Assembly (NCBI GenBank): GCA_026996855.1 | Contig: JALWJZ010000096.1 | Span: forward strand, 1 to 36,823 | Reading direction: 5' to 3' | DNA: 36,823 bases | DNA from: Anaerolineales bacterium | GTDB lineage: Bacteria; Chloroflexota; Anaerolineae; Anaerolineales; DRMV01 | In this document: piece by piece, positions 3,636 through 36,661 of the stretch | Numbering within the stretch: the first letter of the stretch is position 1 | How the letters are laid out: the number at the start of each line of letters is the position of its first letter | Notes under the pieces: generated by a model | Told to the model about the DNA's origin: nothing | What the model saw: the letters and a program-made list of their open reading frames with translations, nothing else | Databases searched by the model: none | Program-made: the position numbers and the translations under genes

Positions 3636-3655
3636 ACTTCGCCGAGGGCAGATAA

Positions 3656-3688
3656 GGGCCGGGTCGGTGAAGGCCCGGCCCCTTTTTT
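3656..3688 (+). terminator. Rho-independent-type hairpin between binding-protein and permease genes
   Basis: GGGCCGGG-N10-CCCGGCCC followed by CTTTTTT. Confidence 0.7.
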
Positions 3689-3797
3689 CGAGCAAGTCGC
3701 GCGGTTTTCGCATTGAACAGGCGGTTTGCTTCCTTCCACTTTTTGTGCCTTCCAAGAGCGATTGCCATGCGCCGCGATTTCAAAAGGAGTGGTCCAC

Positions 3798-5018: not shown

Positions 5019-5088
5019 GCGCGCTCCCTGCGAGGTCGCGCGCTTTGCTGGACGCAGGCAACCTTTCGCCAGGCAAACGGAGACGACC

Positions 5089-6609
5089 ATGAGCACGGTG
5101 AGGACCACCACCTCTTCCGAAACCCTGCCGCCGCCTACCGAGCGGTTTTCCCTCTTGGGCTGGGTGTACAAGAATTTGCTCACGCCGTGGTACAACCTGG
5201 TTTTGACCCTCATCAGCGGGTGGATTTTGTACGTAATTGTGCGAGGGACCCTCACCTGGGCTTTGGGTGCCCGCTGGGAGGTCATTCCCGCCAACTTGCG
5301 CATTTTGATGGTGGGTTCGTATCCCGGGGAATTCTTGTGGCGCATTGGCGCGGCCATTTTGTTGCTGGGCTGGACCGTGGGTTTTTCCTGGGGCGTGTGG
5401 GTTCGCCAAAGGGAGCGGGTGGTCTGGGTGTTGGTGGCCCTTCCCGTGGGGCTGGCCCTGGTGACTGCGGGCCCGGTGCGCTGGATGTGGGCGGGTACGC
5501 TGGCCCTGGCCCTGGCCGGATGGGCGGTGAGCCGGCGTTTGCCCGAACGCATGGGGACGGTGCTGGGTCTGTTGCTCTGGGCCCTTTACTTCCCCGCTTT
5601 CGTGCTTCTGGTACGGGGATGGGGCGTACCCGAAACGCCCAACTGGAAGTATCTGGCCGCATGGCAGGTCACCGTGGTGACCTTTTCCTTCGTGGTGGGG
5701 GTGTGGTGGTCGCGCGTTCCCTGGGTGGCCGCGGTGCACGCGGGTATGTTGGTCGCGTCCTTTTTGGCGCCCCCGGGCTGGCGCGGGGCCTTGTTGCTTT
5801 CCGCGGTACTGGGCTTTCTGGCCTGGCAGGTGGCCCGGCGTTACGCCCACCTGGAAGGCATCAAGCGGTTCAGCCTGCAAGTGGGCATGGCCTACATTCC
5901 CCTCTTGGTGTTCATCTTCTTCGCCTACGAGCCTTTGAGCCAAACCTGGATGGCCAAGGTGGAATCGGCCCATTGGGGCGGGATGTTGCTGAACCTGCTC
6001 ATCACCGTGTTCGGCATTATGTTCAGTTTCCCCCTGGGGGTGCTGTTCGCCTTGGGTCGGCGTTCCTCCCTCCCCGTCATCCGGTTGTTCAGCATTTTGT
6101 ACATCGAGTTCATCCGGGGCGTGCCCTTCGTGACCATCCTTTTCATGGCCCAGGTCATGTTCCCCATTTTGTTGCCCCCGGAGATGTCCGTGGACCGGGT
6201 GGTGCGGGCCATTCTGGGCGTGGTGCTGTTTGCGGCCGCGTACATGGCGGAGAACGTGCGCGGTGGCTTGCAGGCCATTCCCAAGGGCCAGTACGAGGCC
6301 GCTTATGCCCTGGGCCTGACCACCAGCCAGACCCTGTTGCTCATCATTCTGCCTCAGGCCCTGCGCAACGTCATCCCTGTGTTGGTGGGGCAGTTCATCG
6401 GTCTGTTGAAGGACACCACGTTGGTGACCATCGTGGGCCTGTTGGACATCTTGGGCGTGGCCCAGAGCGTACTTTCCAATCCCGAGTGGATTGGGACGCA
6501 GCGGGAAGTATACTTGTTCGTGGCCCTGCTCTTCTGGGTCATTAGTTATGGCATGTCCTACGCCAGCCGGCGTTTAGAGAAGGCGTTGGGCATTGGTGAA
6601 ACCCGCTGA
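5089..6609 (+). CDS. Amino-acid ABC transporter permease (AapM-like)
   Basis: Multi-[54 protein letters not shown]. Confidence 0.92.
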
Positions 6610-6655
6610 GGGGTTGTCCCTTTCCCATCATTTTGTGGACCAGGAGGATTGGACC

Positions 6656-7468
6656 ATGACGGAATCAGTCGGTACGGCCCTGAACAAGCAATATCAGCCC
6701 ACCACCACCCGGCAGAGCCACGCCCGTTACGACGAGCCGCCCATCATCGTGGCCAAGGACGTGCACAAGTGGTTCGGCCACTTCCATGCCCTGCGGGGTA
6801 TCAGCATGGAGGTGTACCCGGGCGAGGTGGTGGTCATCTTCGGGCCTTCGGGTTCGGGGAAATCCACCTTCATCCGGTGCATCAACCGCCTGGAGGAGCA
6901 CCAGAAGGGCACCATCATCGTGGACGGGGTGGAGTTGACCCACAATCTGAAGAACATCGAACAGGTGCGCCGCAAAGTGGGCATGGTCTTCCAGCAATTC
7001 AATTTGTTCCCCCATCTTACGGTCCTGGAAAACGTGACCCTCGCGCCCATTCACGTGTTGAAGTGGCCCAAGGAAAAGGCCGAGAAGGTGGCCATGGAGT
7101 TGCTGGAACGCATGGGCATTCCCGACCAGGCGCACAAGTATCCCGGTCAACTCTCCGGTGGGCAGCAGCAACGGGTGGCCATTGCCCGCGCCCTGGCCAT
7201 GCAGCCCAAAATCATGCTCTTCGACGAGCCGACTTCGGCTCTGGACCCGGAGATGATCAAGGAAGTGCTGGACGTGATGGTGGAACTGGCTCGCTCGGGT
7301 ATGACCATGGTCGTGGTCACCCACGAGATGGGCTTCGCCCGCGCAGTGGCTGACCGTATGTTCTTCTTCGACCAGGGCAAGATTGTGGAAAGCGGTACTC
7401 CGGAAGAAATCTTTACCAACCCCAAAGAAGAACGGACCAAGCAGTTCCTGGCGCAGATTTTGCATTGA
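6656..7468 (+). CDS. Amino-acid ABC transporter ATP-binding protein (GlnQ/AapP-like)
   Basis: Walker [10 protein letters not shown], signature [15 protein letters not shown], Walker [18 protein letters not shown] at 6656 preceded by CAGGAGG. Confidence 0.95.
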
Positions 7469-7520
7469 GCGGCCGCATTTCCGGTCGGCGCCTGGATGGG
7501 GTTCCCGTTCCCCCTGGATT

Positions 7521-7553
7521 CACCGCGAGAGCGAAACCTCGCGGTGCCTTTTT
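7521..7553 (+). terminator. Intrinsic terminator of the amino-acid ABC operon
   Basis: CACCGCGAG-N8-CTCGCGGTG followed by CCTTTTT. Confidence 0.75.
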
Positions 7554-7636
7554 CTTCGGGCGGCTTTGGAAACCCGAGCGCTTTTCGACATCGAACGAAA
7601 ACAGCAAAAGTTTTCGCATTTTCCCACAGGGGTATA

Positions 7637-7686
7637 GAGCACACAGAGGGAATTTTGACCTTCCCCGGGGAACACTCTGTGTGCTC
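7637..7686. repeat. Intergenic inverted repeat (12-bp perfect arms)
   Basis: GAGCACACAGAG ... CTCTGTGTGCTC; loop contains the palindrome TTCCCCGGGGAA; followed by a second CTCTGTGTATG copy. Confidence 0.7.
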
Positions 7687-7848
7687 CGTGGCTCTGTGTA
7701 TGTTCCAACATAAGGAACGTCTGTTTGAAAACTCGGGCGCGCCTCCCCAAAAAAGGGAAAATGATGTAAAATTTCCTCGCGTTTCCCCGGAGGAAATTGG
7801 CGCCGTTCGTCTCGACCGGCATGCCGATTCACCAATCGACGGGAGGGA

Positions 7849-9282
7849 ATGGATATGCGTTTGCGTTTTGTCTTGCTTGGCCTTGGCATGGTGTGGGTCC
7901 TGGCTGCCTGTCAGATGATGAAGCCAGGGTCGGGCCAACAACCCGTTTCGCCGCCGCCACCTCAAGAGGTGTACCTCAGCCCTGAAGCGACGGTTACGAT
8001 GCCCACGGTCGTCGGCACCGAGGCGCCCCACCTGACCCTGACCGTGACCGAGGCCGCCGCATCCGAAGGTACCGTGGCTCCTCCTACCGCGACAGCGGAA
8101 GCCACACCCACGGCGGCGCCTACGATTATGCCCACGTTGACCTCCATACCGCCCACGGCTACGGCAGCGGCCCCCTTACCTACCTCCGTGCCCCCTACGG
8201 CAACCACGGGCATCATCCAGGGTCGGGTGTGGGAAGACGCATGCACCCTGACCGAGGAAGGCCGGCCCGGTCCCAATTGCTGGGCTTACGAAGACCAGAC
8301 CTATGTGGGCAACGGCCTGTACGACGAAGGGGAGCGCCGGGTGGCCGGGGTGGTGGTGAGTCTGGCCCGGGGGGCCTGCCCGGGTGAGGCGGCCTCCACC
8401 ACCATCATGGTCACCGACGCGGAGGGCCGTTTTGCCTTTACCGGGCTTGAGCCGGGGACGTATTGCGTGTTCATCACGCCGGATACCACCAACCCCCTGT
8501 TCCGGGATGCCGTCTGGACCCAACCGGAACTCACGGAGCAGAACCCGGCGTTTACCGTGAACCTGGCGGCCGGGCAGACCTATAGCGTGGATTTCGCCTT
8601 CAGCAAGAAGGTGGGCCTGGGCACACCCACGCCGGAGCCTTCGCCTTCCCCCACCGTGACCCCGACGCCCACGCCGCAGATGGCCACCAACCCTCACCAG
8701 TTGGGTGAACCGGACTTCCGCGATGACATGCACGTACCCGGCAAGTACTGGTACCTGTGGAAGAACAACTACGCCGAATTCACAGGGCAGTACGACTACC
8801 TGATCATGCGCATCATCAAGCAGTCGGCCTCCAGTTATTGGGTGCGCAACACCCTGCCGCCGCTGAAGGACGCCTATGTCGAGGCTGCGTTCATCACCGG
8901 GGCCAATTGCCTCCATAAGGACCGGTACGGCCTGGTAGTGCGGGCGCCCAACCGGTACGAAGGTGTGTGGTTCATGGTTTCCTGCGATGGCATGTTCAAG
9001 ATTTTCCAGTGGAACGGCGGCCTCAAGGTGTTGAAGGAGTGGGAGTACGCCTATCCCATCCACACCGGCCCGCGACAGGTGAACCGGGTGGGGGTGTGGA
9101 TGGAGGGGGACACCCTGACCCTGTACATCAACCGTTCCAAGGTGGCCGAGGTGAAGGTGGACGAACCTTTCACGAAAGCGGGTCTGTTTGGGCTGGCCAT
9201 CGGTGCGGAAGGGGAGGAACCGTTGGAAATCAAGGTGGATTGGTTCCAGTATTGGATGCTTCCCAAGGAGGCCCAACCCTGA
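7849..9282 (+). CDS. Predicted lipoprotein with Thr/Pro-rich linkers, SdrD-B/Cna-B-like domain and C-terminal LamG/DUF1080-like region
   Basis: Lipobox VLAACQ; TPTPEPSPSPTVTPTPTP linker; GLYDEGERRVAGVVVSLARG...DAEGRFAFTGLEPGTYCVFI; C-term GLFGLAIGAEGEEPLEIKVDWFQYW. Domain names by pattern recognition. Confidence 0.65.
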   Translation: MDMRLRFVLLGLGMVWVLAACQMMKPGSGQQPVSPPPPQEVYLSPEATVTMPTVVGTEAPHLTLTVTEAAASEGTVAPPTATAEATPTAAPTIMPTLTSIPPTATAAAPLPTSVPPTATTGIIQGRVWEDACTLTEEGRPGPNCWAYEDQTYVGNGLYDEGERRVAGVVVSLARGACPGEAASTTIMVTDAEGRFAFTGLEPGTYCVFITPDTTNPLFRDAVWTQPELTEQNPAFTVNLAAGQTYSVDFAFSKKVGLGTPTPEPSPSPTVTPTPTPQMATNPHQLGEPDFRDDMHVPGKYWYLWKNNYAEFTGQYDYLIMRIIKQSASSYWVRNTLPPLKDAYVEAAFITGANCLHKDRYGLVVRAPNRYEGVWFMVSCDGMFKIFQWNGGLKVLKEWEYAYPIHTGPRQVNRVGVWMEGDTLTLYINRSKVAEVKVDEPFTKAGLFGLAIGAEGEEPLEIKVDWFQYWMLPKEAQP

Positions 9283-9359: not shown

Positions 9360-11279
<1,920 letters not shown>

Positions 11280-11409
11280 GTTTTCACCTCCTAAGACAAT
11301 AGCTTCCGGGTGGGTTCGGGGAACGCTTCGGGTTTCCCCAATTTTCTGGCCTTTAGCATAACAGGCCTTTGCAAGAAGCACGTTAACATTTGCCCATCTT
11401 TTGGAAACG

Positions 11410-11442
11410 AAAAACACCCGGGCTTTCCATCCCCGGGTGTTT
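11410..11442 (-). terminator. Intrinsic terminator immediately 3' of tRNA-Lys
   Basis: AAACACCCGGG ... CCCGGGTGTTT abutting the encoded CCA; T-run follows on the minus strand (GTTTTTCG). Confidence 0.75.
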
Positions 11443-11519
11443 TGGTGGGCCGTGCAGGACTCGAACCTGCAACCCGCGGATTAAGAGTCCGCTGCTCTGC
11501 CAAATTGAGCTAACGGCCC
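11443..11519 (-). tRNA. tRNA-Lys (anticodon CTT), CCA encoded
   Basis: Minus strand GGGCCGTTAGCTCAATTTGGCAGAGCAGCGGACTCTTAATCCGCGGGTTGCAGGTTCGAGTCCTGCACGGCCCACCA: 7-bp acceptor GGGCCGT/ACGGCCC, anticodon arm GCGGA-CTCTTAA-TCCGC, TTCGA T-loop. Confidence 0.96.
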
Positions 11520-20737: not shown

Positions 20738-23551
20738 ATGATGCGCTCTTTTGTGGCTCTGGACCTGGAAACCACCGGCCTGGACGCGCGGCAGCATGAA
20801 ATCATCGAGATTGCCGCGGTGCGCTTTGAAGCGGGCCGGATTGTGGCGCGATGGGCGGAACTGATCAAGCCGCGCCAGCCCATTCCTGCCCATATCACCC
20901 GCATCACGGGTATTGACAATGGCATGGTGGCCAATGCGCCCCGCATCCACCAGGTAGTGGATGCGCTGCAAGCCTTCGTGGGCGATTCCCTGCTGGTGGG
21001 GCACAACCTGCACAAATTCGACCTGCCCTTTTTGCACATGCAGGGCCTGTTCCGCCGGCATCCCATCGCGGATACCCTGCGGGCTGCAGAGGTGCTTTTG
21101 CCCCGGGCGCCGGATTTCTCCCTGGGGACCCTGGCCCACTACCTGCACCTGCCCCAAACCCCTGCCCATCGGGCGCTGCAAGACGCGGAGACCACGGGCT
21201 GGCTTTTCCTGGCCCTGTGCGAAAAGGCCGCGGAATTGCCCGAGAATTTGCTGCGTCTGCTGCTGCGCTGGGCGCAGCGGGTGCACTGGCCGGCCGCGGT
21301 GGTGCTCCAGGAGGGCCTGCGCCGCCACCGCGGACCCAAAACCCGCCCGCTGGGGTGGACGGGACGCGATGAGCCCATGACCTCTCCGCCACCGCCAGGG
21401 GAACGCCTTCCCCACCCCCTGGAAAGCGGGGCCTTGTTGGGCCCGGAGGGGCCGCTGGCCCGGGTGTTCCCCGGTTACGAAGTGCGGGAATCCCAGATGC
21501 ACATGGCCGAAGCCGTGGCCGAAGCCCTGTTGCGGGAAGAGCACCTCATGGTGGAGGCGGGCACGGGTACGGGTAAGTCCCTGGCGTACCTGGTTCCCGC
21601 CGCGTTGTGGGCCCTGCGTCACCAGCAGCCCGTGGTGGTTTCCACTTACACCAAAGTGCTCCAGGACCAGTTGCTGCACAAGGACATTCCCCTGGTGCAA
21701 AAGATGCTGGGGGATGTGGGCCTGCGGGCCGTAGTGCTCAAAGGCCGGGGAAATTACCTGTGCCCCCGGCGCCTGGAAGACCGATTACGAGAAGGCCCCC
21801 GGGACGAGAGCGAATTCCAGGTGTTGGGCCGCACCCTGGTGTGGTTGGTGGAAGGGGGCACCGGTGAGCAGGACGACCTGACCCTGCGGGGCCATGAAAT
21901 GTGGGTGTGGCGTCAAATCAACGCGGAAGACGAGGGGTGTACCGCCAAGACCTGTACCCAGCGCATGGGCGGGCAGTGTCCTTTCTACCGGGCCCGCCGC
22001 GCGGCCCACGAGGCCCACCTGGTCATCGTCAATCACGCGCTGCTCATGGCCGATGCCATTGGGGGCTTTCGCGTGCTGCCCGAGTTCTCCCGCCTGGTGC
22101 TGGACGAAGCCCACCACCTGGAGCGGGCCGCCACCGAGGCCCTTACCCAGGAGTTTTCCCCCGGCACCTGGCGCGGGTTTTTGCGGGAGTTGGGCCACCG
22201 GCAGAAGGGGTTGTTGGGACGCATCGCTTTCCTCTTCCAGCAGCACGCTTCCCCCGACTACCAGGTGCGGGTCCGGGGGTGGATTCAACACGCGGTGGAC
22301 GCGGCCTTTCAATTCCAGGAAGAACTCAAAATCCTGGAGGCCCTTTTCCAGGACTATCTCAATCAGACCCACCCCAACCGGGAGCGCTATCGGTACACCT
22401 TGCGCATCCGCATGACGCCTCATTTTTACCATCAGCCCTGGTGGAAGCAGGTGGAGCGGGAGTGGTTGCGGGTGCGCACGTACCTGGAAACCCTGCACGA
22501 CCGCTTGGAGCAATTGGCCCTGCTGGTGCACCGGTTGTACCAGCAACTCGAAGACCCCGAAGCCCAGGAGGCCCTGGAAGACGTCCACGGCCGGCTGCTG
22601 ACCCTGGACCAGCGGGCCCTGGAGGTGCGGGAGCACTTGCAGGCCTTCTTCCTGGAAGGGGAATTGCGCTGGGACGCGGAGGTCCACTGGCTGGAATGGG
22701 ACCCCAAGCGGAAACAGATGGCCTGGGTGCGGGCGCCTCGCCGGGTGGACCACCTGCTCCAGGAAAGCCTGTGGGAAAAGAAGCCCGCCGCGGTGCTCAC
22801 TTCCGCCACGTTGACCGTGGCTGGTTCCTTTGCCTTCATGCAGGAGCGGCTGGGGATGTTCCAGGCCCGCACGTTGCTGTTGCCTTCCCCCTTCGATTAC
22901 GAAAACCAGGCCCTGATGTACGTGGTGCGCAACGTGCCGCGTCCCAACGGGCCGGAGTACACCGAGGTACTTTCGGCCGCGCTGGTGGAACTGGCCCGCG
23001 CGACGCAAGGACGTATGTTGGTGCTGTTCACTTCCTACGCCCAGATGGACGCGGTGGCCCGGCGCATTCGTTCCGCGTTGGAGGCCGCGGGCATCCGGCT
23101 GCTCCTCCAGGAGGAAAAGCGCTCCGTGCAGTCTCTGGTGCGGGCTTTTCGGGCCGGGGGAGCGGCGGTGCTTTTGGGCACCCGCTCCCTGTGGGAGGGC
23201 ATCGACATCCCCGGCCAGGACCTTTCGGTGCTGGTGCTGACCAAACTGCCCTTTGGCGTGCCCGATGACCCTTTGCACGCGGCCCGGGCCGAGATGTACC
23301 CGGACCCTTTCACCCAGTACTCCCTGCCCGACGCGGTGCTGGCCTTTCGCCAGGGCTTCGGTCGGCTCATCCGCACCCGCACGGACCGGGGCCTGGTGGT
23401 GGTGTTCGATTCCCGGCTGATTCACCGCCGGTACGGGCAGGTATTTCTGCGGTCCCTGCCGGCCTGCCGGGTGTACCAGGGGCCGTGGGAGTCCCTGCCG
23501 GACCTGGCGGCCCAATGGCTGGACGCGGCGGCGGTGCCCGCAGAGGTGTGA
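20738..23551 (+). CDS. dinG: DinG-family helicase with N-terminal DEDDh (DnaQ-like) exonuclease domain
   Basis: FVALDLETTGLDARQHEIIEIAAVRFE...; Walker A VEAGTGTGKS; Fe-S-type Cys cluster (NYLCPRR...GCTAKTCTQRMGGQCPFY); DEAH box LVLDEAHHLE; C-term GFGRLIRTRTDRGLVVVFDSR. Confidence 0.93.
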   Translation: MMRSFVALDLETTGLDARQHEIIEIAAVRFEAGRIVARWAELIKPRQPIPAHITRITGIDNGMVANAPRIHQVVDALQAFVGDSLLVGHNLHKFDLPFLHMQGLFRRHPIADTLRAAEVLLPRAPDFSLGTLAHYLHLPQTPAHRALQDAETTGWLFLALCEKAAELPENLLRLLLRWAQRVHWPAAVVLQEGLRRHRGPKTRPLGWTGRDEPMTSPPPPGERLPHPLESGALLGPEGPLARVFPGYEVRESQMHMAEAVAEALLREEHLMVEAGTGTGKSLAYLVPAALWALRHQQPVVVSTYTKVLQDQLLHKDIPLVQKMLGDVGLRAVVLKGRGNYLCPRRLEDRLREGPRDESEFQVLGRTLVWLVEGGTGEQDDLTLRGHEMWVWRQINAEDEGCTAKTCTQRMGGQCPFYRARRAAHEAHLVIVNHALLMADAIGGFRVLPEFSRLVLDEAHHLERAATEALTQEFSPGTWRGFLRELGHRQKGLLGRIAFLFQQHASPDYQVRVRGWIQHAVDAAFQFQEELKILEALFQDYLNQTHPNRERYRYTLRIRMTPHFYHQPWWKQVEREWLRVRTYLETLHDRLEQLALLVHRLYQQLEDPEAQEALEDVHGRLLTLDQRALEVREHLQAFFLEGELRWDAEVHWLEWDPKRKQMAWVRAPRRVDHLLQESLWEKKPAAVLTSATLTVAGSFAFMQERLGMFQARTLLLPSPFDYENQALMYVVRNVPRPNGPEYTEVLSAALVELARATQGRMLVLFTSYAQMDAVARRIRSALEAAGIRLLLQEEKRSVQSLVRAFRAGGAAVLLGTRSLWEGIDIPGQDLSVLVLTKLPFGVPDDPLHAARAEMYPDPFTQYSLPDAVLAFRQGFGRLIRTRTDRGLVVVFDSRLIHRRYGQVFLRSLPACRVYQGPWESLPDLAAQWLDAAAVPAEV

Positions 23552-23590
23552 CCGAAGCCGAAAACGTGGCGTTGCTCAAGGAGGGGGCGC

Positions 23591-25516
23591 ATGGCGAGGA
23601 AAGGCGGAAAGCTCGGACAAATGCAATTTTGTCGCTGTAATGACGATAAATGGTCTTGTTGGGGTAAGTACGGGGCTATTATATCTATACTTTTGTTTTC
23701 TGCGCTTCTCGTCTTCAATGTTTATTTTCAAAGTTTAGCGCCTTCAGAGGAAGATTTTGAAATTTTATTAAAAGAAATATGGCTGGCGCGCTTTGCCCAT
23801 CACGTGTGGAAGTATGGTGGCGCGGGTATTACGATATTTGTGACTTTTTGGGGGAGTTGGTTGCTCCGGGAATGGCAATTGCAAACCGAAGCGCTACAGT
23901 TTCGCCAAGAAATGTACACCAAACTCGCTCAGTCTCCGGATTTACCTCATTTAAAATTGTGGTTATTCCATCCGAATGCTCACGTACGGTGTTATCCCCT
24001 ACCCAACATGGTCACGGAAGAAGAATGGCTGCAGACCCTTTCTTTGATTTGCCTGGAAGCCGACGACCTTTTGGATTCCACGCTGCATGATGTATTGGCG
24101 GAAGCCGTGCGCCTGGCCCGAAGACGCTTTCGTTCCCCTATTTGGGAGGATTTGGCGCGGCTGCTTTCCAAGGGATGGACGTGTCGTTCTGTTGGGGAAT
24201 GGGCGGAACGGATTGCCGCCTGGCCCTTTGCTCCTCACGCGAATCCCAAAGACTATGACAGGGCGGATTTGCCTTCGGTGCGTGGGTTGCAAATTTGGGC
24301 CTTGGCGCAGTTGTTGAAATTCGGGCAGATTGCAGATCGGCGCTTATCTCGCTCCTTTAAGGAAGCCGCTGTTTTACTGCGTGACCACCGGCTTTTGGAT
24401 CTGGCCCGGCAACTGGGTTACGAACCGCATATCGCCTGGCTTCGCGGCGACAGTCCCCGCTTTTTTGTCGAATCCGCAACCAAATCCCTTCCTTTTTTGG
24501 AATTACGAGGTGAAAAGGCGCCTTATAAGGGAAGGTCATCGCGCCCTTCTCCTTCCTTTTTCATCCAGGAAGATGGCACCTTGCGTTTTCCTCGACCGGT
24601 AAGCGATATCTGGGAACCTCCCAAAGCGTGGCCTGGAGATGACGAGGTTAGACGGCACTGGTGGATGATAGGCGCCTCCCCCTGGGATCTCCGTCTGGCC
24701 GCCGTCTACATGCTGGAAACCCTGGCAAGGCCACTTTCGAGCACTTTTCCTCTGGCATGGGAATTTGGTGATGCTCCATCGCCTCGCGAAGCGGGGCAGG
24801 GGTTGTTGTGGGTTTTGGCGGAAAATTGGCTTCGGCATCTGGCTTTTTGGCCTACGTTGTTCGTGGAACTGAGGCCGCATCAACGCCGCAGTTTTTTCCG
24901 GTTGTTGGAACTCGTATACGGGGATCGTGACATTATAAAAAGCCGGTTTGAGGATTTTTCAACGCAGGGGCAGTCGTTTGTTCAAAATTTGCCTTCTCGG
25001 ACGCGAAGGGAGTTTGACTTGGCCCGCACTTTGTTCCTCCGTTACTATTTGAAATTCATGCAACCCGAAGAATCGGGCATAAATGTGCCGCCCTCTTGGG
25101 AAGCCTTTTGGTTGAAATTGCGTCCTTTGGGATTCGAGCACTCTTTCTTTTTCATTCGGGTGCCTTCTGGAAGCGAAGAGGCTTTGCTGCAATGGTTGAA
25201 GCAAAACGCTTTGGCCTTGGACCAATGGGCTCGCTTGGGCGTCTTTCTGCGAGTGTTTGCCCAAAACGAACCCACCAACTCCACATCCTTCCGGGTAATT
25301 TCCCTTCGTTGGTCTCCCCAGGCCCTACGCAATATGTTGGAGCAATGGATTCATATCATTTTTGGGTTCCGAACGCCCTGGGAGGGTCTGTGGGAGCCTG
25401 AACAGCGGGCGGAGGCGGAGGCGGCGTGGCAGAATGCATTGCAGTACGCCGACGGTTCTTTCGGCCGGTTTCTCCAATCGCTGGCAAAAGCCCTTGAGCA
25501 CCAAGGTTTGCTTTGA
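23591..25516 (+). CDS. Hypothetical membrane-anchored protein (two predicted N-terminal TM helices, large soluble region); cluster gene A
   Basis: 641 aa; AAGGAGGGGG RBS 5' of the ATG; hydrophobic YGAIISILLFSALLVFNVYF and GGAGITIFVTFWGSWLL; no recognised family. Confidence 0.8.
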   Translation: MARKGGKLGQMQFCRCNDDKWSCWGKYGAIISILLFSALLVFNVYFQSLAPSEEDFEILLKEIWLARFAHHVWKYGGAGITIFVTFWGSWLLREWQLQTEALQFRQEMYTKLAQSPDLPHLKLWLFHPNAHVRCYPLPNMVTEEEWLQTLSLICLEADDLLDSTLHDVLAEAVRLARRRFRSPIWEDLARLLSKGWTCRSVGEWAERIAAWPFAPHANPKDYDRADLPSVRGLQIWALAQLLKFGQIADRRLSRSFKEAAVLLRDHRLLDLARQLGYEPHIAWLRGDSPRFFVESATKSLPFLELRGEKAPYKGRSSRPSPSFFIQEDGTLRFPRPVSDIWEPPKAWPGDDEVRRHWWMIGASPWDLRLAAVYMLETLARPLSSTFPLAWEFGDAPSPREAGQGLLWVLAENWLRHLAFWPTLFVELRPHQRRSFFRLLELVYGDRDIIKSRFEDFSTQGQSFVQNLPSRTRREFDLARTLFLRYYLKFMQPEESGINVPPSWEAFWLKLRPLGFEHSFFFIRVPSGSEEALLQWLKQNALALDQWARLGVFLRVFAQNEPTNSTSFRVISLRWSPQALRNMLEQWIHIIFGFRTPWEGLWEPEQRAEAEAAWQNALQYADGSFGRFLQSLAKALEHQGLL

Positions 25517-26922
25517 TGGGTGCGCGAATACGTGCTCGGCTGCTGCAAGTGTTCACCCGCCAAACGGCCGAGCAGGAGGAGGAATGGCTGGCCCAGGTCT
25601 TCCTTCCGCCGGCCCGTTGGCCCTACTGGCAGCGGGAGGACGAATCTCTGTTGGTGGTGGGGGAAAGCGGCAGCGGCCGGACCGCGCTGGCCCGCATGTT
25701 CCTGAGCGGGACCCCTTCCCAGGGCGCCCCTTCGCCTTTCAAAGTGCTCTGGGAACCCGCCCCTCCGGCCCGAACCGCATATGCCACGGCGTGGGAGGTG
25801 TTGGGTGCTCAGTTGTTGCGGGAAGGGGTGAAGGCGCTGTTGAGTTATCTGGCCCGGCATGGCCATTGGACGGCCACCCGCCCCCAATGGTTCGATACCG
25901 CGCTGTACCAGTTGGTCCACGGCGTGCTGCCCGAACCCGTGCAGATGCACCTCTGGCCCCTGGTGCGCCAGGGGGAGGGCGACGCTTCGGCCCTCCAGGA
26001 CATCCTCCTGGGGGAGCAGGAGGTGCCCGTCGAACACGTGACCTTTGCCGAGGGCGCGGCTTATTTGGTGACCCTGGTACAGGTTTTGGGCTTTTCCGCG
26101 GTGTGGGTGGTCATGGACATCCCGTCCGAGGAAACCGAGTTCGGCCTTGGCCTGCTGGAGGCCTGGGCCAATACCCTGCGCTTCATGGACGTGCCCGGCC
26201 TGGTGTTCAAGTGCCTGGTGCCGCGGCACATTTTCGAGCGGCTTTCGCACACCGTGGGGGTATTGCGTCGCCGTCTCCCGCCCGAGGCCCTGCGCTGGAC
26301 CGGGGAAGACATGCAAGCCCTGGTGGAAAAACGCCTGGCCTGGGCCACCGAGGGCCGTTGGACCCGCCTCCAGGACGTGGTGGCCGACGACGCCTTTTTG
26401 GAATGGCTGCGGGATTACGGTCGCGGCCATCCCCGAGCCTGGTTGGGGTTGATGGCGCCCTTCATCCAGGCCCGGGTGGAGCGGGAGCAGCCTTTGGGAC
26501 CGGAAGATTGGCTACGCTTGGCCCGGGCTTTTCCGCCTCCTCTCTACGTGGATGAAGCCCAACGCCGGGTGTACGCGGGCGCCCGGGAAATTTCCCTGGC
26601 GGGGGAGGAAACGTGGAAGTTGTTGCGCTATTTGTACCGCCGAGGCGGACAGATTTGCTCGCGCGAGGAAATCTATTTCCAAGGATTGCTGGGCATGGCC
26701 CGGGTACCCTCGCCCGACGACCCGGACTATGAAGCCCCGGCGTTGTGGCGCGCCCGGCTGGACACCCTGCTCTATCGCTTGCGCAAGGACATCGAGCCGG
26801 ACCCTCGGAAGCCGGTATACCTGGAAACGGTGCGGGGGCAGGGTATTCGCCTGCGCCACACGGCCACGGCGTTGGGGTTGCGCCGGCAGCCCCTGGACCT
26901 TGGCTTTGTGAGACGGGGGTAG
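25516..26922 (+). CDS. P-loop NTPase-like protein fused to C-terminal OmpR/PhoB-type winged helix; cluster gene B
   Basis: Walker-A-like VVGESGSGRTALA (K->R); C-term LYVDEAQRRVYAGAREISLAGEETWKLLRYLYRRGGQICSREEI...RLDTLLYRLRKDIEPDPRKPVYLETVRGQGIRL. ATG overlaps gene A stop (TGATG). Confidence 0.85.
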   Translation: MGARIRARLLQVFTRQTAEQEEEWLAQVFLPPARWPYWQREDESLLVVGESGSGRTALARMFLSGTPSQGAPSPFKVLWEPAPPARTAYATAWEVLGAQLLREGVKALLSYLARHGHWTATRPQWFDTALYQLVHGVLPEPVQMHLWPLVRQGEGDASALQDILLGEQEVPVEHVTFAEGAAYLVTLVQVLGFSAVWVVMDIPSEETEFGLGLLEAWANTLRFMDVPGLVFKCLVPRHIFERLSHTVGVLRRRLPPEALRWTGEDMQALVEKRLAWATEGRWTRLQDVVADDAFLEWLRDYGRGHPRAWLGLMAPFIQARVEREQPLGPEDWLRLARAFPPPLYVDEAQRRVYAGAREISLAGEETWKLLRYLYRRGGQICSREEIYFQGLLGMARVPSPDDPDYEAPALWRARLDTLLYRLRKDIEPDPRKPVYLETVRGQGIRLRHTATALGLRRQPLDLGFVRRG

Positions 26923-26934
26923 CCGCCTCAAAAG

Positions 26935-27114
26935 ATGGGCAATCATCTTGCTTTGGATACCGGGCCGCTGGCAAAGAGACAAATTGAGGGGCGACTTTTT
27001 TGCGGGCTACGATGCACTTGTCCTATTTTATCGGAGAATGGATGCAATTTATGCTTCATTTCTGAAGAGGTCGAACTTGAGGGGTTGTCTTGGCTGCCTT
27101 TGAGAGCCGGGTAA
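26935..27114 (+). CDS. Candidate 59-aa Cys-rich small protein (or readthrough tail of gene B)
   Basis: ATG-to-TAA ORF MGNHLALDTGPLAKRQIEGRLFCGLRCTCPILSENGCNLCFISEEVELEGLSWLPLRAG; just below the 60-aa ORF-track cutoff; in-frame with gene B after TAG. No strong RBS. Confidence 0.4.
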   Translation: MGNHLALDTGPLAKRQIEGRLFCGLRCTCPILSENGCNLCFISEEVELEGLSWLPLRAG

Positions 27115-27230
27115 ATGTAAGGGAGTTGTGAGACATTTGCAAGATGAATGTCAGTCAATTGAGGTTTTTAAGGTTAGAAAAAGATTATGGTAGAAAGCGC
27201 TCGGATGCAGGATCGTGTGAGGATTTTATC

Positions 27231-28349
27231 ATGCAATGGTATCGCCGTTATGGGTGGGTGTACAATCCCTTTGCCCATCTGGATGCGGCCAAAGACCCGC
27301 ATCTGCTGGAATATCTATACCTGCCTCCCGCCCTGTATGGCGTGAAGGACGAAACCTCCCTCCTGGTCTTTGCCCCGGCCGGGGGTGGCAAGACGGCTTT
27401 GCGTATCGGCCTGGAACGAGAGGCCCTGATGGAACAGGGGGTGACCATCGTGTTGCCCGTGGTGCCCGAAAGGCCCTGGGAAACCCTGGACCACTTTTAT
27501 GAGGATGCGCTGCGGGTGCTGGCCCGCCGCTTGTGGTTGCAGGCCCTGTGGGGTGGCGAGGCGACGTGGCGCGCGTTGACGGCCACGGACCTGGCCTTTT
27601 TAGGGGGACTCTGGCATGCCTACCTGCCCTTCCGCCCCTTGCTGGAAGCCTGGGTGCGGAACCGGCAATGGGAGACTTTGGAACGCCATTTGCAGTTGCT
27701 CATACCCTCTTGGATGCCGGTTCCGGAGCAACTGGAAGGGTTTCTATCCTGGTATCGAAAGGCCCTGGAAGGGGCTTCGGGGCGGATTCCGGCCATACGG
27801 CAGGCTTTGTGGGATGGATTGGCGTTGCTGCGGGCACGTATGGGCGCGCAGCGGTTTTTTGTGTACGTGGATGGCCTGGATGCCTTCCCGGAAACCCGTA
27901 CCCCCCAGGCCGCGTTGGCCCAGTTACGGCCGGTGTTGGAGCATCTGGGCGAGTGGGAAGCCCGGGGCGTGTATCTGAAGGCCTTTCTCCCCGGTCCTGT
28001 TCCGGAGGGCGCGCATCTTCCTCTGGATTTCGTCGAGTTGGCCTGGGGCGAGGAAGACCTGATACGCATCCTGCAATTGCGCGTGCGTGCCGCCAGTCGG
28101 GGGGTGATGACCTCGCTGGATGCCGTTGCGGTTCCGGGCTTTCGCGAGGTGGAACGGTATCTGGTGCAACGCCTGCCCCCGAAGCGCGCCTGGCCCCGGG
28201 AACTCATCTACCTGACCCGTTGCTTGCTGGAGCAGGCCCAGGGACGCCGGCTCCGTCCCGAGTATCTGAACCAGGTTATGAGGGAGATAATGTTTGCATG
28301 GATACCTGCTTATGGTCCTGAAGGTTTTGGCGTGCAGGCGACCCTTTGA
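27231..28349 (+). CDS. P-loop ATPase; cluster gene C
   Basis: MQWYRRYGWVYNPFAHLDAAKDPHLLEYLYLPPALYG...LLVFAPAGGGKTALR (Walker A); RFFVYVDGLDAF (Walker B). ORF track starts upstream at 27144. Confidence 0.82.
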   Translation: MQWYRRYGWVYNPFAHLDAAKDPHLLEYLYLPPALYGVKDETSLLVFAPAGGGKTALRIGLEREALMEQGVTIVLPVVPERPWETLDHFYEDALRVLARRLWLQALWGGEATWRALTATDLAFLGGLWHAYLPFRPLLEAWVRNRQWETLERHLQLLIPSWMPVPEQLEGFLSWYRKALEGASGRIPAIRQALWDGLALLRARMGAQRFFVYVDGLDAFPETRTPQAALAQLRPVLEHLGEWEARGVYLKAFLPGPVPEGAHLPLDFVELAWGEEDLIRILQLRVRAASRGVMTSLDAVAVPGFREVERYLVQRLPPKRAWPRELIYLTRCLLEQAQGRRLRPEYLNQVMREIMFAWIPAYGPEGFGVQATL

Positions 28350-28375
28350 AATGCAGATTCAAATCGACAGGCCGC

Positions 28376-29644
28376 ATGAGTGGGATCCAGAAAATGGTGG
28401 AGAAAGCGCCTCTGTCGTACCAAAATGGTGATTTGGAAATGAAGCAAGTAGTAGAATTTACACCATATCACCCACAGGTGTTCCGCTGGCATCGGGGAGC
28501 GGTGAAAGCATGCGATACGATACTGGTTTGGTTGCAAAATTTTAGTCGGCATTATGTCAGGATTCTGCGTACGCCTGTGGGCATGGGAAAGAGTTGGCTG
28601 CAATTGCATCTCTGGCACTTGTTTGTTGGGGAGATAGGCGTTCCGAACACCATTGACGAAGCGGATAACTTTCAATCGTACCTTGAAAAGGTCCGTTCCC
28701 GTTACGGTGCCTTTTGGTCAATCGTCGTTGCTCCCGTGCCCATAGAGGGAGATTTCGAGGAAAAGAAAAAATATGCTTTTCGGAAAAGGCCAAAAGGCGT
28801 GCTTTGGGTGAGTAAAGAACATCCGGAAAAAGACCCCAATTGGTTGGACGGTTTGACCCGTTTTCTGGCGAAGGAATTCGGCTTGTGGGTTTCTGGGGGC
28901 ACCGAAAACGAAGCCCTTTTCATTCAGAATTTGACCAAAGTGTTGCGGGAGCGGGAGAGGCCCCTGGTTTTGATGGTGGACGGTCTGGACGAGTTGTCCG
29001 ATGATACCCTCGCGCAATTTGAAAGACTGGTTTTGGTGCCTTTCTTGGCTACAAGAGTGCCCCTGCTGCTCAGCCTGCGGGAAGGCCGGGACCCCATCTG
29101 GCGACGGGACGAATTGCGCAGGGCCGGAGAAATCCCTTTGGGCAAACCCGGGGAAGAAGAAGTTCCTAAATTTATCGAGGGTCTCTCTGAGGAAGACAGA
29201 AAACGAATTATCACATATACCGCTCGCGTTCCTTTCCTTCTGGATGCAGCGGCTCAATGCAAGACAAAGTATTTCGGGCAGAAATTTTGGTCTCAAATTT
29301 GGCAGGATGATGAGGTGCTACAAGCATGGCGTAGGTGTTTGAAATGGTCCTGGTTGCGCAGGGCCTTTGGTCCTTTGTTGAAAGTAACCAACGGTGAAGA
29401 GGTTCTCGAATGGAAGACCTATTATAGAGAGCGTGAGCAGGTGCCTCTGTCCGCTTGGTTGAAGATTTTGGAAATGGTGGTCGAAAAAGTCGAGGCCCGT
29501 GCATTCGAGCCAGCGGAGATAACTTCCCCTGAGATTCGGGACCCCTGGAGCGTGGTGCACCTGCTCCAGAAGCGAGGACTGCTGCGGTGGACCCGCAGCC
29601 AGGCTTGGGTTTTGGATGAGGGTATGGTTGCCGTTCTTGGGTGA
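28376..29644 (+). CDS. NACHT/STAND-like P-loop NTPase; cluster gene D
   Basis: Walker A RTPVGMGKSWLQ; Walker B RPLVLMVDGLDELSDD; RVPLLLSLREGRD. ORF opens at 28346 (TTG), overlapping gene C stop; ATG at 28376. Confidence 0.8.
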   Translation: MSGIQKMVEKAPLSYQNGDLEMKQVVEFTPYHPQVFRWHRGAVKACDTILVWLQNFSRHYVRILRTPVGMGKSWLQLHLWHLFVGEIGVPNTIDEADNFQSYLEKVRSRYGAFWSIVVAPVPIEGDFEEKKKYAFRKRPKGVLWVSKEHPEKDPNWLDGLTRFLAKEFGLWVSGGTENEALFIQNLTKVLRERERPLVLMVDGLDELSDDTLAQFERLVLVPFLATRVPLLLSLREGRDPIWRRDELRRAGEIPLGKPGEEEVPKFIEGLSEEDRKRIITYTARVPFLLDAAAQCKTKYFGQKFWSQIWQDDEVLQAWRRCLKWSWLRRAFGPLLKVTNGEEVLEWKTYYREREQVPLSAWLKILEMVVEKVEARAFEPAEITSPEIRDPWSVVHLLQKRGLLRWTRSQAWVLDEGMVAVLG

Positions 29645-29837
29645 ACAAGGTCTCAGTTTGGGCAGCTTTTGCAGGCGGGCCTTTTTGGAATGCTTTGGTC
29701 GGACCGGCTCCGGGGCCAACATCGGCCTACGGTCGTCCGCCTTTGAAGTCTTCGGCGACTTTTGAGTGTCCCCTTATGAATCCCAGGATATATCTATGGT
29801 ATGATTGAAGCGAGACGTTTTTGAGGGAGGGGATTGG

Positions 29838-32800
29838 ATGCGGGTACCAGTTGGTTTTCGCCGTTTGACCGAAATGGTGGGCCGCCAAGACGTGGTACGG
29901 GACCTGGAACAGGCCCTGGAAACGGTCCAGGACCAGCGGGGGGTTCAGGTGGTCTTTCTCATGGGGAAAGGTGGTTATGGCAAGACCTATCTGCTGGAGC
30001 AGATGTTGCGGAAGTGGCGCGACAAATATGCTTATGTGTTGCTGCCGGACCGGGTGGTGGATTTGTACGATGTCGTGACCCACACGGTAGAAGGCTTCGT
30101 CGAGCAATTGATGGCGGCTTTTGATTCGGCATGGGAGGACCCCATGCTGGCCCCCCATTATCGCCGCTACCAGGACGTCCGCGCCCGCCTGGCCCGGGCT
30201 CGTTTGCAAGGCGACGCGGCCCGGATTCGGGACGCCCGACAGGCGTATCAGAACCAGGTGAAATCCATTTTTCGGGAAATCAGCCGCACCCTGCCCCTGG
30301 TCTGGATGCTGGACACCGCGGAGCGCTGGGTCTACCGTACCGGGCCGGGGGAGGATGACGTGACGCTGGCCGAGGCCTGGAACTGCCTCTGGAAATGGTT
30401 GCAAGACGAAACCCAGCGGCCCGAGTCCCTGCTTCTCATCATTGCCGGGCGGCCGCAACGCACCCGCGCCCTCCAGCGGGCCGTGCGCGAGAAGCGCGAT
30501 TTTTGCTGTGAACGGGACATTCTGCTCCGGCCCTTCACGGTGGAAGAAGTGGAAGCCTATTTACGCCAGGTGGAAATCGAACTGGAAGTGGAGGGTTTGG
30601 CCAGGGACGCGGCGCGCATCCACCGTTTGACCCAGGGTTCGCCCATCCGTTTGGGCGTTTTCGTGGACATGTATTTGCGCCGGCCACAAGAGGCGGAAGC
30701 CTTGCTGGAATCCGGGCGACCCGCGGACATGCTGGAATCTTTGTTCAACATGGCCCCCTGGTCCGAATTGTTGCGCTACCTGGGCGCGGCCGCGCGCGGG
30801 CTGTCGCCGGGCCTGTTGGCTTATTTGGAGAAACCGGGCACGGATTTGCCCTCCGAGGAGGAAATCCAGCGGGCCAGACGCAAATTGGAGGCCGCTCGAA
30901 ACATGGTGTTTATCAAAGTCCGGCCTTTGTACGGGGAAGACCATTTCTTCCTGCACGACGAAGTGTACGATTGGGTGCGGGAATTGCTGTTCCGTGAAGA
31001 AGTCCACCGAACCGAACGCGGGCCTGAAAGGAGCGAATCAACGCGTCTGGAACGCCTGTTGGCGGCGGCCGCGGACTTTGTGGTGAAGCATCGTTTGGAG
31101 CGGGAAATCTGGGGTAAGTTGCGGAACTTGTATGCCCGCATCGCCGAAGGCGGCCATGGCCACGGGGAAGAGGTTCAAAACGCTGCAGCACTGTGGGAAC
31201 AACAAACCCGCCTGGAGGCCTGGCGCCGGCAGGCCTACGCCGACGTGGTCTATTACCGCCTCCGCAGCAAACCGAGCGCCGGCATGCGGCGGGTTTTGCG
31301 CATGCTGTGGGAGGCCCGAAGTTTGAAGCGGGACGACATCGTGCGAGCCTTGTTCGTGGAACTCTCCGAATACTGGCACGATTTGATTGAAGAAGAAGGG
31401 AAGGACCGGCCCTGGTTCCCCCTGCCCACCGAGGAAAAACGTTATTACATCACGGGCTTGATGAAATTGCGACCTTTATGGGAAGCCGCGACGCTTCGTC
31501 GTCGTCTTGAAGGGGTGTTGGAACAAGTGCGGGGCGATTTGGAGCAATGGATGGAGACGGCTTTGCCCCGGTTGGAAGAAAAACACGCGCAAACGCTTCG
31601 CGTGATTTTGGAATCTTTGCTGGATTTGGCCGCGAGTGATGAGAAAATCCGCGATGGAAAGTTGGACGAAGTCTTGCAGACGTTGCGCAACGCGTTGAAC
31701 CGGGTGCATGCATTGCGAGGGTCTTCCGAAGACCCTTTTCTCCGTTGGTGGCGATATTTCCTGGAGGGCGTCATCAATCGGGTGATGGGCTATGCGTATG
31801 CCCGTGAAAAAGCCTGGTCTGTGGCTATCGAGCGGTATACCGAGGCTTTCAACCTGCTTCGGAACGCGGTCTTCTATCTGGAAGAAGCCATTGCCGCCAA
31901 CGACGGCGCCTTTGCCCTGGCCCATGTGGGGGCATTCGAACGGGCAGAGCGTTTCGTGCTCTATGCCTTGAGTTTACGCTTGAAAATGGGGCTGGGGTTG
32001 TTCTACGGATTGAGCCTGAACACCCGGGCGCGTATCAATCTTTTGCAGGGTTCCTTTTGGGACGCAGTACAGGATTCTACCGCGGCCTTGCGGGTCTTCC
32101 AGGCCGTAGAGTACCGTCGGGGCGAAGGGCTGGCTCATCTGGCCCTGGCCGAGGCCTACCGCCGATTGGGCAACCAGGAGTTCCGCTCTTTGGAGCAGCG
32201 TCGTGAATTCTTGCAAAACGCCCAGGAACACGCCCAAAAGGCCCTGGACATCTTTACCCATGAAGTGGACGAAGTGCTACGGCGCCTGGAGGCCTACGAC
32301 CAACTGGCCCGGGCCTTGCGCCAGTTGTACCGCTTGTCTCGAGATGCTGACCAACCCGATGAGCGCTTGAAACGCAAAGCCCTGCGCACCTTCCAGGTGG
32401 TGCGCCGTATGGCGCAGGAAATGAAACTACCCGTTTACGAAGTGCAGGCCCTGGTGGGCGAAATGTGGTTGCGCTTCCACACCGGCGAAGGGGTGGCCTC
32501 GTTGTTGAAAGAAATTCATCGAATTATCGTTGAACGCTGCCCTCAAGCCCAGGATGTGCCGGAATGGGTAAAAGCGCTTCAAGAGGGGCGGGTGTATGGT
32601 GGAATTTGTTCTTCCCTGGCGGGGGAATACGGCCGCGCCCTGGTCGTGGCGGCCTTGTATGCCTTGGATCACGGCCTCACAGCCGGCGCCGAAAAGAATA
32701 GCGAGTGGCTCCAAAAGGCCGCGCGGTCGGCTTTGTTGGGTCTGGAAATCCTTCAGCGAGCGCCGGGCCAGCATTACGTGCGCTGGCAGGCCGAAGAGCA

Positions 32801-32960
32801 CCTGGACAAACGCTTACGGCGCATGAATCCTGGGGAGTTGCGGGTTTTCATAACGGTTTTTTGCGAGGTGGCCCAGGAGCTGGGGCTCGCTTTTGAGGAG
32901 ACCCGCCTGTACAAACTTTTGGTAGAAGGCGGGTTGTGGGGTAATGGGCATTGTTGGTAG
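29838..32960 (+). CDS. Large STAND-type ATPase with C-terminal TPR-like helical repeats; cluster gene E
   Basis: MVGRQDVVRDLEQALE...VVFLMGKGGYGKTYLLEQML (Walker A); LPLVWMLDTAE (Walker B); LLLIIAGRPQR; GSPIRLGVF; C-terminal Leu/Ala/Tyr-patterned helical repeats. ATG 29838 preceded by GGGAGGGG. Confidence 0.85.
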   Translation: MRVPVGFRRLTEMVGRQDVVRDLEQALETVQDQRGVQVVFLMGKGGYGKTYLLEQMLRKWRDKYAYVLLPDRVVDLYDVVTHTVEGFVEQLMAAFDSAWEDPMLAPHYRRYQDVRARLARARLQGDAARIRDARQAYQNQVKSIFREISRTLPLVWMLDTAERWVYRTGPGEDDVTLAEAWNCLWKWLQDETQRPESLLLIIAGRPQRTRALQRAVREKRDFCCERDILLRPFTVEEVEAYLRQVEIELEVEGLARDAARIHRLTQGSPIRLGVFVDMYLRRPQEAEALLESGRPADMLESLFNMAPWSELLRYLGAAARGLSPGLLAYLEKPGTDLPSEEEIQRARRKLEAARNMVFIKVRPLYGEDHFFLHDEVYDWVRELLFREEVHRTERGPERSESTRLERLLAAAADFVVKHRLEREIWGKLRNLYARIAEGGHGHGEEVQNAAALWEQQTRLEAWRRQAYADVVYYRLRSKPSAGMRRVLRMLWEARSLKRDDIVRALFVELSEYWHDLIEEEGKDRPWFPLPTEEKRYYITGLMKLRPLWEAATLRRRLEGVLEQVRGDLEQWMETALPRLEEKHAQTLRVILESLLDLAASDEKIRDGKLDEVLQTLRNALNRVHALRGSSEDPFLRWWRYFLEGVINRVMGYAYAREKAWSVAIERYTEAFNLLRNAVFYLEEAIAANDGAFALAHVGAFERAERFVLYALSLRLKMGLGLFYGLSLNTRARINLLQGSFWDAVQDSTAALRVFQAVEYRRGEGLAHLALAEAYRRLGNQEFRSLEQRREFLQNAQEHAQKALDIFTHEVDEVLRRLEAYDQLARALRQLYRLSRDADQPDERLKRKALRTFQVVRRMAQEMKLPVYEVQALVGEMWLRFHTGEGVASLLKEIHRIIVERCPQAQDVPEWVKALQEGRVYGGICSSLAGEYGRALVVAALYALDHGLTAGAEKNSEWLQKAARSALLGLEILQRAPGQHYVRWQAEEHLDKRLRRMNPGELRVFITVFCEVAQELGLAFEETRLYKLLVEGGLWGNGHCW

Positions 32961-33067
32961 TTTATTTGCCGGACAATTGAGGTGTACACGTTGACAAACA
33001 TAAGTGGCGTGCTCATTTTGCAACAAAGATTGGAAATTAGTAAGGGGAAGGGAGGGGCGTTATCTCA

Positions 33068-34451
33068 ATGCGACTGCGCCCCGCCCAGCCCTTCCGCGCG
33101 GTGGCCCCAATGCGATTGCGCCTGCACCCCCGCGGGCGAAGGCGCTGTGCTGGCGCTGGATACCGCTACCCATGCCCTGCGCCGGGCCGAGCCTGTGGTC
33201 ACCGCCGGGCTGCCGGGGGGCTACACCGCGTTCCTCAGCCCCTATGAGCCCTTTGGCCGGGTAGCGGTGCTGGACCCTCGCGCGGTCCAGGTGTGGCACC
33301 GCCTCCCCCAGGGCACCTTTCGGCCCCAGGACCTGCCCGCGGCGCACCGGGACCTGTTGGAGCCCATGCGCATGGCCGGCCTGGTGGTGCCCGCGGAGGC
33401 CCGGCCCGCGCCCCTGTGGCAGGGGCCGCCTCCGGTGCGCACCTACTGGGTGGAACTCACCCCCGCGTGCAATCTGCGCTGCCCCTACTGCTACGTGGAC
33501 AAACAGGGCCCCGTGCTCTCGGTGGAGGTGGCCCGCGCCTTTTTGGCCTCCGTCTTCCAGCAGGCCCGGCAGGAGGGCGGCGAGGTCTACCTCAAATTTG
33601 CGGGCGGTGAGCCTACTTTGGTCTGGGAGCGCCTGGTGGAAATCCATCGCCTGGCCGCGGCCCTGGCCCGGGAGGCCAACGTGCCCTACCGCCCCGGCCT
33701 GCTCACCAACGCCACCCGCCTGACGCCGGAGCGTCTGGACTGGCTGGCCCGGGAAGGGTTTTCCCTGATGGTGTCCATCGACGGCGTGGGCGCCTTCCAC
33801 GACCACACCCGGGCGCTGCCCCTCCAGGGCCGGGGCACCTTCGAGCAGGTGGACGCGGCCATTCGCCAGGCCCGGGCGCGCGACCTGCCCTTGAGCCTGA
33901 GCCACACCGTGACCCGGCTCAACGTGGCCGGCCTGGTGGATTTCGTGGCGTACGCGGTGGAGGTGGGCGCGGCCTTCAACCTCAACTTCTACCGGCCGCC
34001 TCAATGGCCCCACCCCCTGGCTCCCGATTTGGAGGAACTCACCGAGCACCTCCACCGGGCCATGGACTGGCTGGAAGCCCACCTGCCGCCGTACCGCATC
34101 ATCGACGGCTTGCTGGACCGGGCCCGCTTCGACTATCCCCACCAGCATGCCTGTGCCGCGGGGCATACCTACTTTGCCCTGGGGGCCCGGGGCCAGGTGG
34201 CTTCCTGTCCCATGCTTCTGGGGCGGGAAGGGGCGTCCGTCGCGGCGCCGCGGGTGGAGGAGAAACCCGATTGTGCCTCGTGCCCCTGGCGGTACTGGTG
34301 CGGCGGAGGTTGTCCGGTGCTGGCCCAAGCGGCCGCGGGGGACATAGGCGCCGCCTCGCCCTACTGCCCGGTGTACCGCTCCCTGTACCCCCGCCTGGTG
34401 CGGCTGGAAGGCCTGCGGGTGCTGCAAACGGTGGGCGCAGCCGTTGCATAA
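33068..34451 (+). CDS. Radical SAM/SPASM-domain protein with apparent 1-nt frameshift near its 5' end
   Basis: VELTPACNLRCPYCYVDKQG (CX3CX2C); KFAGGEPTLVWERL; SPASM-type CASCPWRYWCGGGCPV. ORF 32982..34451 carries the domains; ATG 33068 with upstream GGGAGGGG is in another frame that joins it if one G is removed at 33134-33136. Confidence 0.85.
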
Positions 34452-34578: not shown

Positions 34579-34884
34579 ATGGCCACCGAATTGCGCCCCT
34601 TAGGGAATCGCGTTGTGGTCAAACCCATCGAACAGGAAGAGCGCACGCCCAGCGGCTTGGTGCTTCCCGAGACCGCCAAGGAAAAGCCCCAAGAGGGTGA
34701 AGTGCTGGCCGTAGGCCCCGGCGAGTGGGCCGAGGACGGCAAGACCCGCATCCCCGTGGAAGTGAAGGTGGGTGACCGGGTCATTTTCGCCAAGTATGCC
34801 GGCACCGAGGTGAAAGTGGACGGCGAAAAACTGCTCATCCTGCGGGAGAGCGACATCCTGGCCATCGTGGAGCGCAAGGAATAG
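34579..34884 (+). CDS. groES: Co-chaperonin GroES (Hsp10)
   Basis: [71 protein letters not shown]. Confidence 0.98.

Positions 34885-35029: not shown

Positions 35030-36640
<1,611 letters not shown>

Positions 36641-36661
<21 letters not shown>

Follow-up and report, generated by a model that had tools for sequence, protein, structure and literature searches.

Whether a run of neighbouring ATPase genes in a bacterial genome forms one functional unit and, if so, what that unit does, is the question raised by five large genes, A to E, within a window of 36,823 nucleotides from an Anaerolineales bacterium (GenBank assembly GCA_026996855.1, contig JALWJZ010000096.1, positions 1 to 36,823). The window, meaning the whole stretch of DNA that was analysed, corresponds to contig 96 in a draft genome of 2.56 Mb. 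An earlier note on the same DNA had proposed a membrane-linked, multi-ATPase signalling or conflict system flanked by a radical S-adenosylmethionine (SAM) gene. Genes A-E, together with that radical SAM gene (F), are a real, recurrent gene system of the Chloroflexota, and because the gene set is conserved and its relatives carry TIR, SIR2 or CHAT genes in exchange, it is probably an undescribed bacterial conflict (immune or stress-response) system.

Open reading frames (ORFs) A-E were read on the plus strand within the block 23591-32960 of the earlier note (Table 1). A first search of 300 genomes of the phylum with A and D gave weak matches, both at the same places, and the order A-B-C-D-E was read at those places in five genomes (L018, L019, L020, L021 and L022); a genome scan with an alignment of B added L038, L039, L044, L045 and the partial locus L042, and a search of the phylum added L111, L113 (where A and F are frameshifted), L114, L115 and L116, with L112 a repeat of L038. 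The earlier note had made recurrence elsewhere the test of its proposal, and, apart from the window, the same order was found in 14 distinct loci, complete or nearly so, from several Chloroflexota classes. Since homologues of every gene recur in this order at other loci, A-E are not chance ORFs. A strong match to the B profile (E < 1e-80) was obtained in 13 of 399 Chloroflexota genomes, and the gene set is therefore patchy; a scan of genome contigs and plasmids with C alone gave no match, and no description of this gene set was found in the open-access papers searched. In the window there is a 4-base overlap between A and B and an overlap, or nearly one, between C and D; gaps of 221, 160 and 21 bases separate B from C, D from E and E from F. 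The window's genome also holds a second, variant locus (L033 = G000:C49:1-14000) whose genes are D, E, an F that contains DCAC, and one for a membrane ATPase bearing the P-loop-like motif GERGSGRT; clear B and C genes were not seen there.

The block extends beyond position 32960, because F is part of the unit and not the mere flank it had been taken for; F is the likeliest enzymatic output of the system. Most loci have F directly after E; in the G222/Roseiflexus type the two genes are neighbours with divergent orientation. It was found (E-value up to 1e-60) in 43 of the 399 genomes, including all 13 with a strong B, and a gene for an E-type STAND protein with tetratricopeptide repeats (STAND-TPR) was within 3 kb of F in 37 of the 39 F loci read. 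Of the other two, one F sits at the end of a contig (L163), and the second belongs to a genome with both genes present and unlinked (G270: A-E on contig 13, L116; F on contig 9, L166). The E-F gap of G222 (L020:1-1840 / L035:9480-11340) is packed with short repeats having RLSAIDY-like translations. A protein of about 210-240 residues with two transmembrane (TM) segments and a coiled coil, designated G, adjoins F in several loci.

F matched Pfam Radical_SAM at 3e-17; the CX3CX2C motif is present in 40 of 40 F proteins and the SPASM cysteine pattern in 39. The nearest NCBIfam models are peptide maturases, QhpD among them, with PapB first (NF047865: 1e-28, 100-143 bits, against a cut-off of 340 bits), and F scores far under the cut-offs of all of them. 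The AlphaFold model of F (confidence score, pLDDT, 80) matches CteB, a maturase that forms thioethers in ribosomally synthesized and post-translationally modified peptides (RiPPs), over 452-464 columns; the segment of F in the position of the CteB leader-binding domain, searched alone, had no Pfam match. PapB joins Cys to an acidic residue, Asp or Glu, in CX3D and tolerates spacings of n = 0-6 in CXnD (PMC9413430), and QhpD forms Cys-to-Asp/Glu thioethers (PMC7876137). F shares cluster motifs and fold with PapB, QhpD and CteB, the Cys-Asp/Glu chemistry being that of the first two; it differs in carrying DC/DCAC motifs in cis, whereas the known precursor with CX3D is a separate peptide.

These motifs occupy an N-terminal tail (residues 17-58 of the window protein) that is disordered in the AlphaFold model, with pLDDT < 50 save at single residues. 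DCAC at residues 45-48 was present in 19 of 19 aligned F proteins. Asp precedes 73 of the 184 tail cysteines of 40 F proteins, compared with 12.6 in shuffles (maximum 24 among 2000 shuffles); for the remainder of the same proteins the count is 23 of 438. When all intergenic gaps around the genes were translated, no small ORF with CX3D-type motifs was found, and of the DCAC-coding sites in six genomes, the part that was read included none in a convincing small gene. Because the tail has this motif, the relatives have this chemistry and no stand-alone precursor was found, we infer that the substrate of F lies in cis, and F probably cross-links its own Asp-Cys tail.

The other five proteins fall, as judged from profile comparisons, into two ATPase families. 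A, B and C are assigned to one: the C-terminal 330 residues of A matched the C family (hhalign 98.2%, E 5e-14), and B matched C (99.8%, 2e-30). D and E are assigned to a second, STAND-like family through their NTPase domains (98%, 1.5e-13), and comparison of the C and D profiles gave no match. P-loops had been claimed for B through E; those of C, D and E stand, whereas the Walker A of B is altered. Its Lys, nearly invariant among 16 B proteins, is replaced by Arg, and for that reason the B ATPase may be inactive. Both B and C are distantly related to DS41_1 (NF053860: B 4.8e-10, 39 bits; C 1.9e-10, 40 bits; homologues up to 64 bits; cut-off 370 bits), and C also resembles the Sll1717-type P-loop ATPases (NF047389: 8.7e-10, 38 bits; homologues 33-47 bits; cut-off 75 bits). 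The DNA-binding domain that had been noticed in B is an OmpR-type winged helix (Pfam Trans_reg_C 2.8e-9, above gathering, with PDB profile matches to OmpR/PhoB-type domains), and transcriptional output through B is plausible. Of the two N-terminal TM helices ascribed to A, the first was clear and the second weaker in the TM scan; a low-confidence AlphaFold model (pLDDT 57) has long helices at residues 21-48 and 62-113 and gave no significant fold match. Two TM segments flank a domain of about 130-150 residues in most A homologues, and this domain is shortened in the window protein. Because A has lost the P-loop, while variants in L033, L034 and L117 retain a P-loop-like motif, A appears to be a pseudo-ATPase on a membrane anchor; the description of the block as a membrane-linked multi-ATPase system thus holds. 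A relation of A to BrxC of BREX was not supported, the fold match (E 0.26) being non-significant and PglZ/BrxX partners being absent from the unit.

D gave weak AAA_22/NACHT matches in Pfam, and E matched AAA_16 at 2e-10. The helical repeats expected in E proved to be TPRs, with profile matches to PINS, KLC, PH0952 and AfsR. Residues G54/G57/G59/K60, D170-T-x-E173 and G278-x-P280 are invariant among 17 E proteins, and E has all of the STAND features of Walker A, Walker B, GxP and C-terminal repeats. One E-type STAND-TPR protein (L168:5334-9200) includes a match to Peripla_BP_4 over residues 68-318, possibly a sugar or ligand sensor.

Relatives of the locus bear on function. Genes of effector type lie beside E-F in about 10 loci. 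In loci with E-F but without A-B-C they are mostly on the same strand (Table 1); in L122 the order is CHAT-NTPase, B, an NTPase resembling D, then E and F. Effector exchange round a constant NTPase core is a signature of conflict systems (Kaur et al. 2020, PMC7159879), and it was found among the E-F relatives, not in the window itself. The same paper describes a radical SAM effector, thought to modify an effector peptide, in its FtsH ternary systems, which share with our block the NTPase core, swappable effectors and, in one relative, EAD7-CHAT. The block differs from these systems in that no FtsH, MoxR or vWA component was found among the Pfam matches of A-F, in the fusion of the putative peptide to F, and in having up to five ATPase-like proteins. 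The system is built from known families and looks to be of the NTPase-centred conflict type, with a distinctive radical SAM component. In one locus (L158:15135-19312) three SIR2-domain genes, two of them with a C-terminal TIR, stand in tandem upstream of D-E-F.

The reading we prefer, at a probability of roughly 0.5, is that of a STAND/AAA-type conflict or stress-response system in which F has its substrate in cis and A-B-C serve as a sensor/output module. E would sense a ligand or invader through its TPRs, the membrane subunit A sensing as well in the window version; E and D would form a regulated NTPase core, the ATPases assembling in a nucleotide-driven manner. F, held in this core, would once activated introduce Cys-Asp thioether (or similar) links into its own disordered tail, and output could come via the modified tail, the winged helix of B, or action of A on the membrane. 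The recurrence of the gene set, its domain content with two ATPase families, the coupling of E with F, the tail motif and the effector genes of relatives are observations; cross-linking of the tail, its activation through E, the direction of the signal and a protective role are proposals. The A-B-C trio would fill the place of the effectors of other lineages, probably linking the envelope to DNA binding or membrane action, and, if this is right, an ATPase trio can stand in for TIR, SIR2 or CHAT effectors. The fuller version, in which infection or stress leads to a cross-linked tail acting as effector or signal, the constant core pairing the STAND-TPR ATPase with a radical SAM enzyme that has its own multi-copy substrate, and A-B-C or TIR/SIR2/CHAT being exchangeable, is put forward tentatively. 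If true, it would link the study of STAND-type immunity with that of peptide chemistry by radical SAM enzymes, would provide a self-modifying RiPP-like enzyme with a cis substrate that is a possible effector, and would offer a defined gene set, an E-F core plus modules, open to expression and testing.

Several observations weigh against the preferred reading. No enzymatic effector was recognised in A-E, and F of L160, L161 and L176 has weak tail motifs or none. In the tree of 40 F proteins the window F forms a long branch of uncertain placement, and its G+C content is 70% compared with 54-64% for A-E (window positions 23001-34000); together these suggest that F and A-E had separate histories. 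PADLOC models gave only noise on E (E > 0.003) and nothing on A-D, and the 47 genes flanking A-E loci are mostly housekeeping among the Pfam families listed (25 most frequent of 73), a sample in which a rare effector could be hidden. A defence-island reading was set aside on the families listed for these flanks. The conflict proposal of the earlier note has indirect backing, in the TIR, SIR2, CHAT-EAD7 and PNP_UDP genes near the core in relatives and in the DS41_1 relationship, set against the PADLOC result and the flanks.

The same evidence bears on a narrower form of the preferred reading, overlapping with it, in which the locus is a dedicated anti-phage system and A a membrane effector acting by abortive infection. 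Effector swapping, patchy occurrence, the restriction-modification genes adjoining two A-E loci and the distant kinship of B and C to the ATPase of the anti-phage system DS-41 (DefensePredictor, PMC13092281) agree with it, the last being a comparison by DS41_1, at 39-64 bits against the cut-off of 370 bits. PADLOC and the flanks do not agree with it, and the homologues of A, with an outer domain between two TM segments, resemble receptors; we hold this form to be possible but doubtful.

Alternatively, the Asp-Cys tail might be a binding site for a metal or for an additional iron-sulphur cluster, or might control F through redox changes, the substrate of F being another protein. The Cys pair of DCAC, compact and almost invariant, speaks for this. 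The number of motif copies, however, ranges from one to five per F, with variable spacing, in disordered segments that sometimes flank the small N-terminal domain on either side. Among more distant F proteins the forms DCDC, DCEC, NDCR or NDCG occur, and some have none; DC goes beyond CxC to DCR and DCG. Of the DCAC-coding sites in six genomes, the part that was read lay in no convincing small ORF. We consider this explanation rather unlikely.

STAND-TPR proteins adjoin radical SAM maturases in the cyclophane RiPP systems FxsB/FxsT and HaaT, which have separate precursor peptides. One E homologue matches HaaT (1.1e-9), F resembles RiPP maturases and B carries a winged helix, and the locus could thus be a RiPP biosynthesis cluster with an exported peptide and with ATPases acting as pathway regulators of the AfsR/MalT type. 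FxsB/FxsT and HaaT are, however, not known to have the A-B-C-D ATPases; the architecture of E is like that of the AfsR/PH0952-type STAND-TPR sensors, but E is without a DNA-binding domain of its own, the winged helix sitting on B. The unit lacks a conserved gene for an exporter, a leader protease or a precursor, five ATPases are too many for regulation, and the relatives carry TIR/SIR2/CHAT genes, which makes biosynthesis of an exported peptide improbable. A chance neighbourhood of unrelated accessory genes, for which only the differing flanks speak, is ruled out by the order of five to six genes kept across divergent lineages and by the finding of F in all 13 genomes that have a strong B.

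The tree of F proteins requires at least three changes to account for the distribution of A-E, and A-B-C would accordingly have been gained or lost several times. Flanking genes vary among genomes; in same-genus relatives the block is not beside DinG (G001, G002) nor GroEL (G002), and since the family relatives that were checked do not have DinG next to GroEL, there was no clean empty site.

Table 1. Positions of the genes, domains and motifs of the window, and of associated genes in related loci
Feature	Position	Strand	Description or basis
Gene A	23591-25516	+	641 aa, putative membrane-anchored pseudo-ATPase; TM scan, A-vs-C hhalign
A TM1	about 23672-23728	+	TM scan
A TM2	about 23813-23875	+	TM scan
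A C-terminal ATPase-like domain	about 24497-25513	+	without P-loop
Gene B	25513-26922	+	469 aa, predicted ATPase + OmpR-type winged helix; Pfam Trans_reg_C, NF053860
B Walker A, GESGSGRT	25660-25683	+	alignment; Lys to Arg
B winged-helix domain	26560-26853	+	Pfam, PDB profiles
Gene C	27144-28349	+	401 aa, predicted P-loop ATPase akin to B (Sll1717/DS41_1-like)
Gene D	28346-29644	+	STAND-like P-loop NTPase; start uncertain, 28346 or 28439
Gene E	29805-32960	+	1051 aa, predicted STAND NTPase, C-terminal TPR repeats
Gene F	32982-34451	+	radical SAM/SPASM, RiPP-maturase type, Asp-Cys tail; start GTG 32982 or later
F first Asp-Cys pair of tail (QCDCAPP)	33072-33077	+	
F DCAC motif	33114-33125	+	invariant, 19 aligned proteins
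F small beta/helix domain	33165-33392	+	position of CteB leader-binding (RRE) domain; AlphaFold, CteB match
F CX3CX2C motif (C163, C167, C170)	33468-33491	+	
GroES	34579-34884		window
GroEL	35030-36661		window
SIR2 genes beside E-F	L158-L160		domain scan; L161 counterpart alike by sequence, unscanned
SIR2-TIR beside E-F	L157 (weak), L158, L176		
TIR-NTPase beside E-F	L165		
NTPase-CHAT beside E-F	L164		
NTPase-EAD7-CHAT beside E-F	L169		
PNP_UDP phosphorylase beside E-F	L159, L160		
Protein G	L018:14173-14868; L039:18557-19276; L034:8836-9462		conserved, without Pfam family

The window that holds GroES and GroEL also has a DnaK (Hsp70) gene at 9360-11417 on the minus strand, beside a tRNA-Lys(CTT) gene at 11443-11519 on the same strand. 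In another genome of the set (L197, G007:C41), repeated FQSTLPARGSD / FNPRSPRGGAT strings at about 3300-8700 lie near Cas-looking genes; this tract is probably a CRISPR array.

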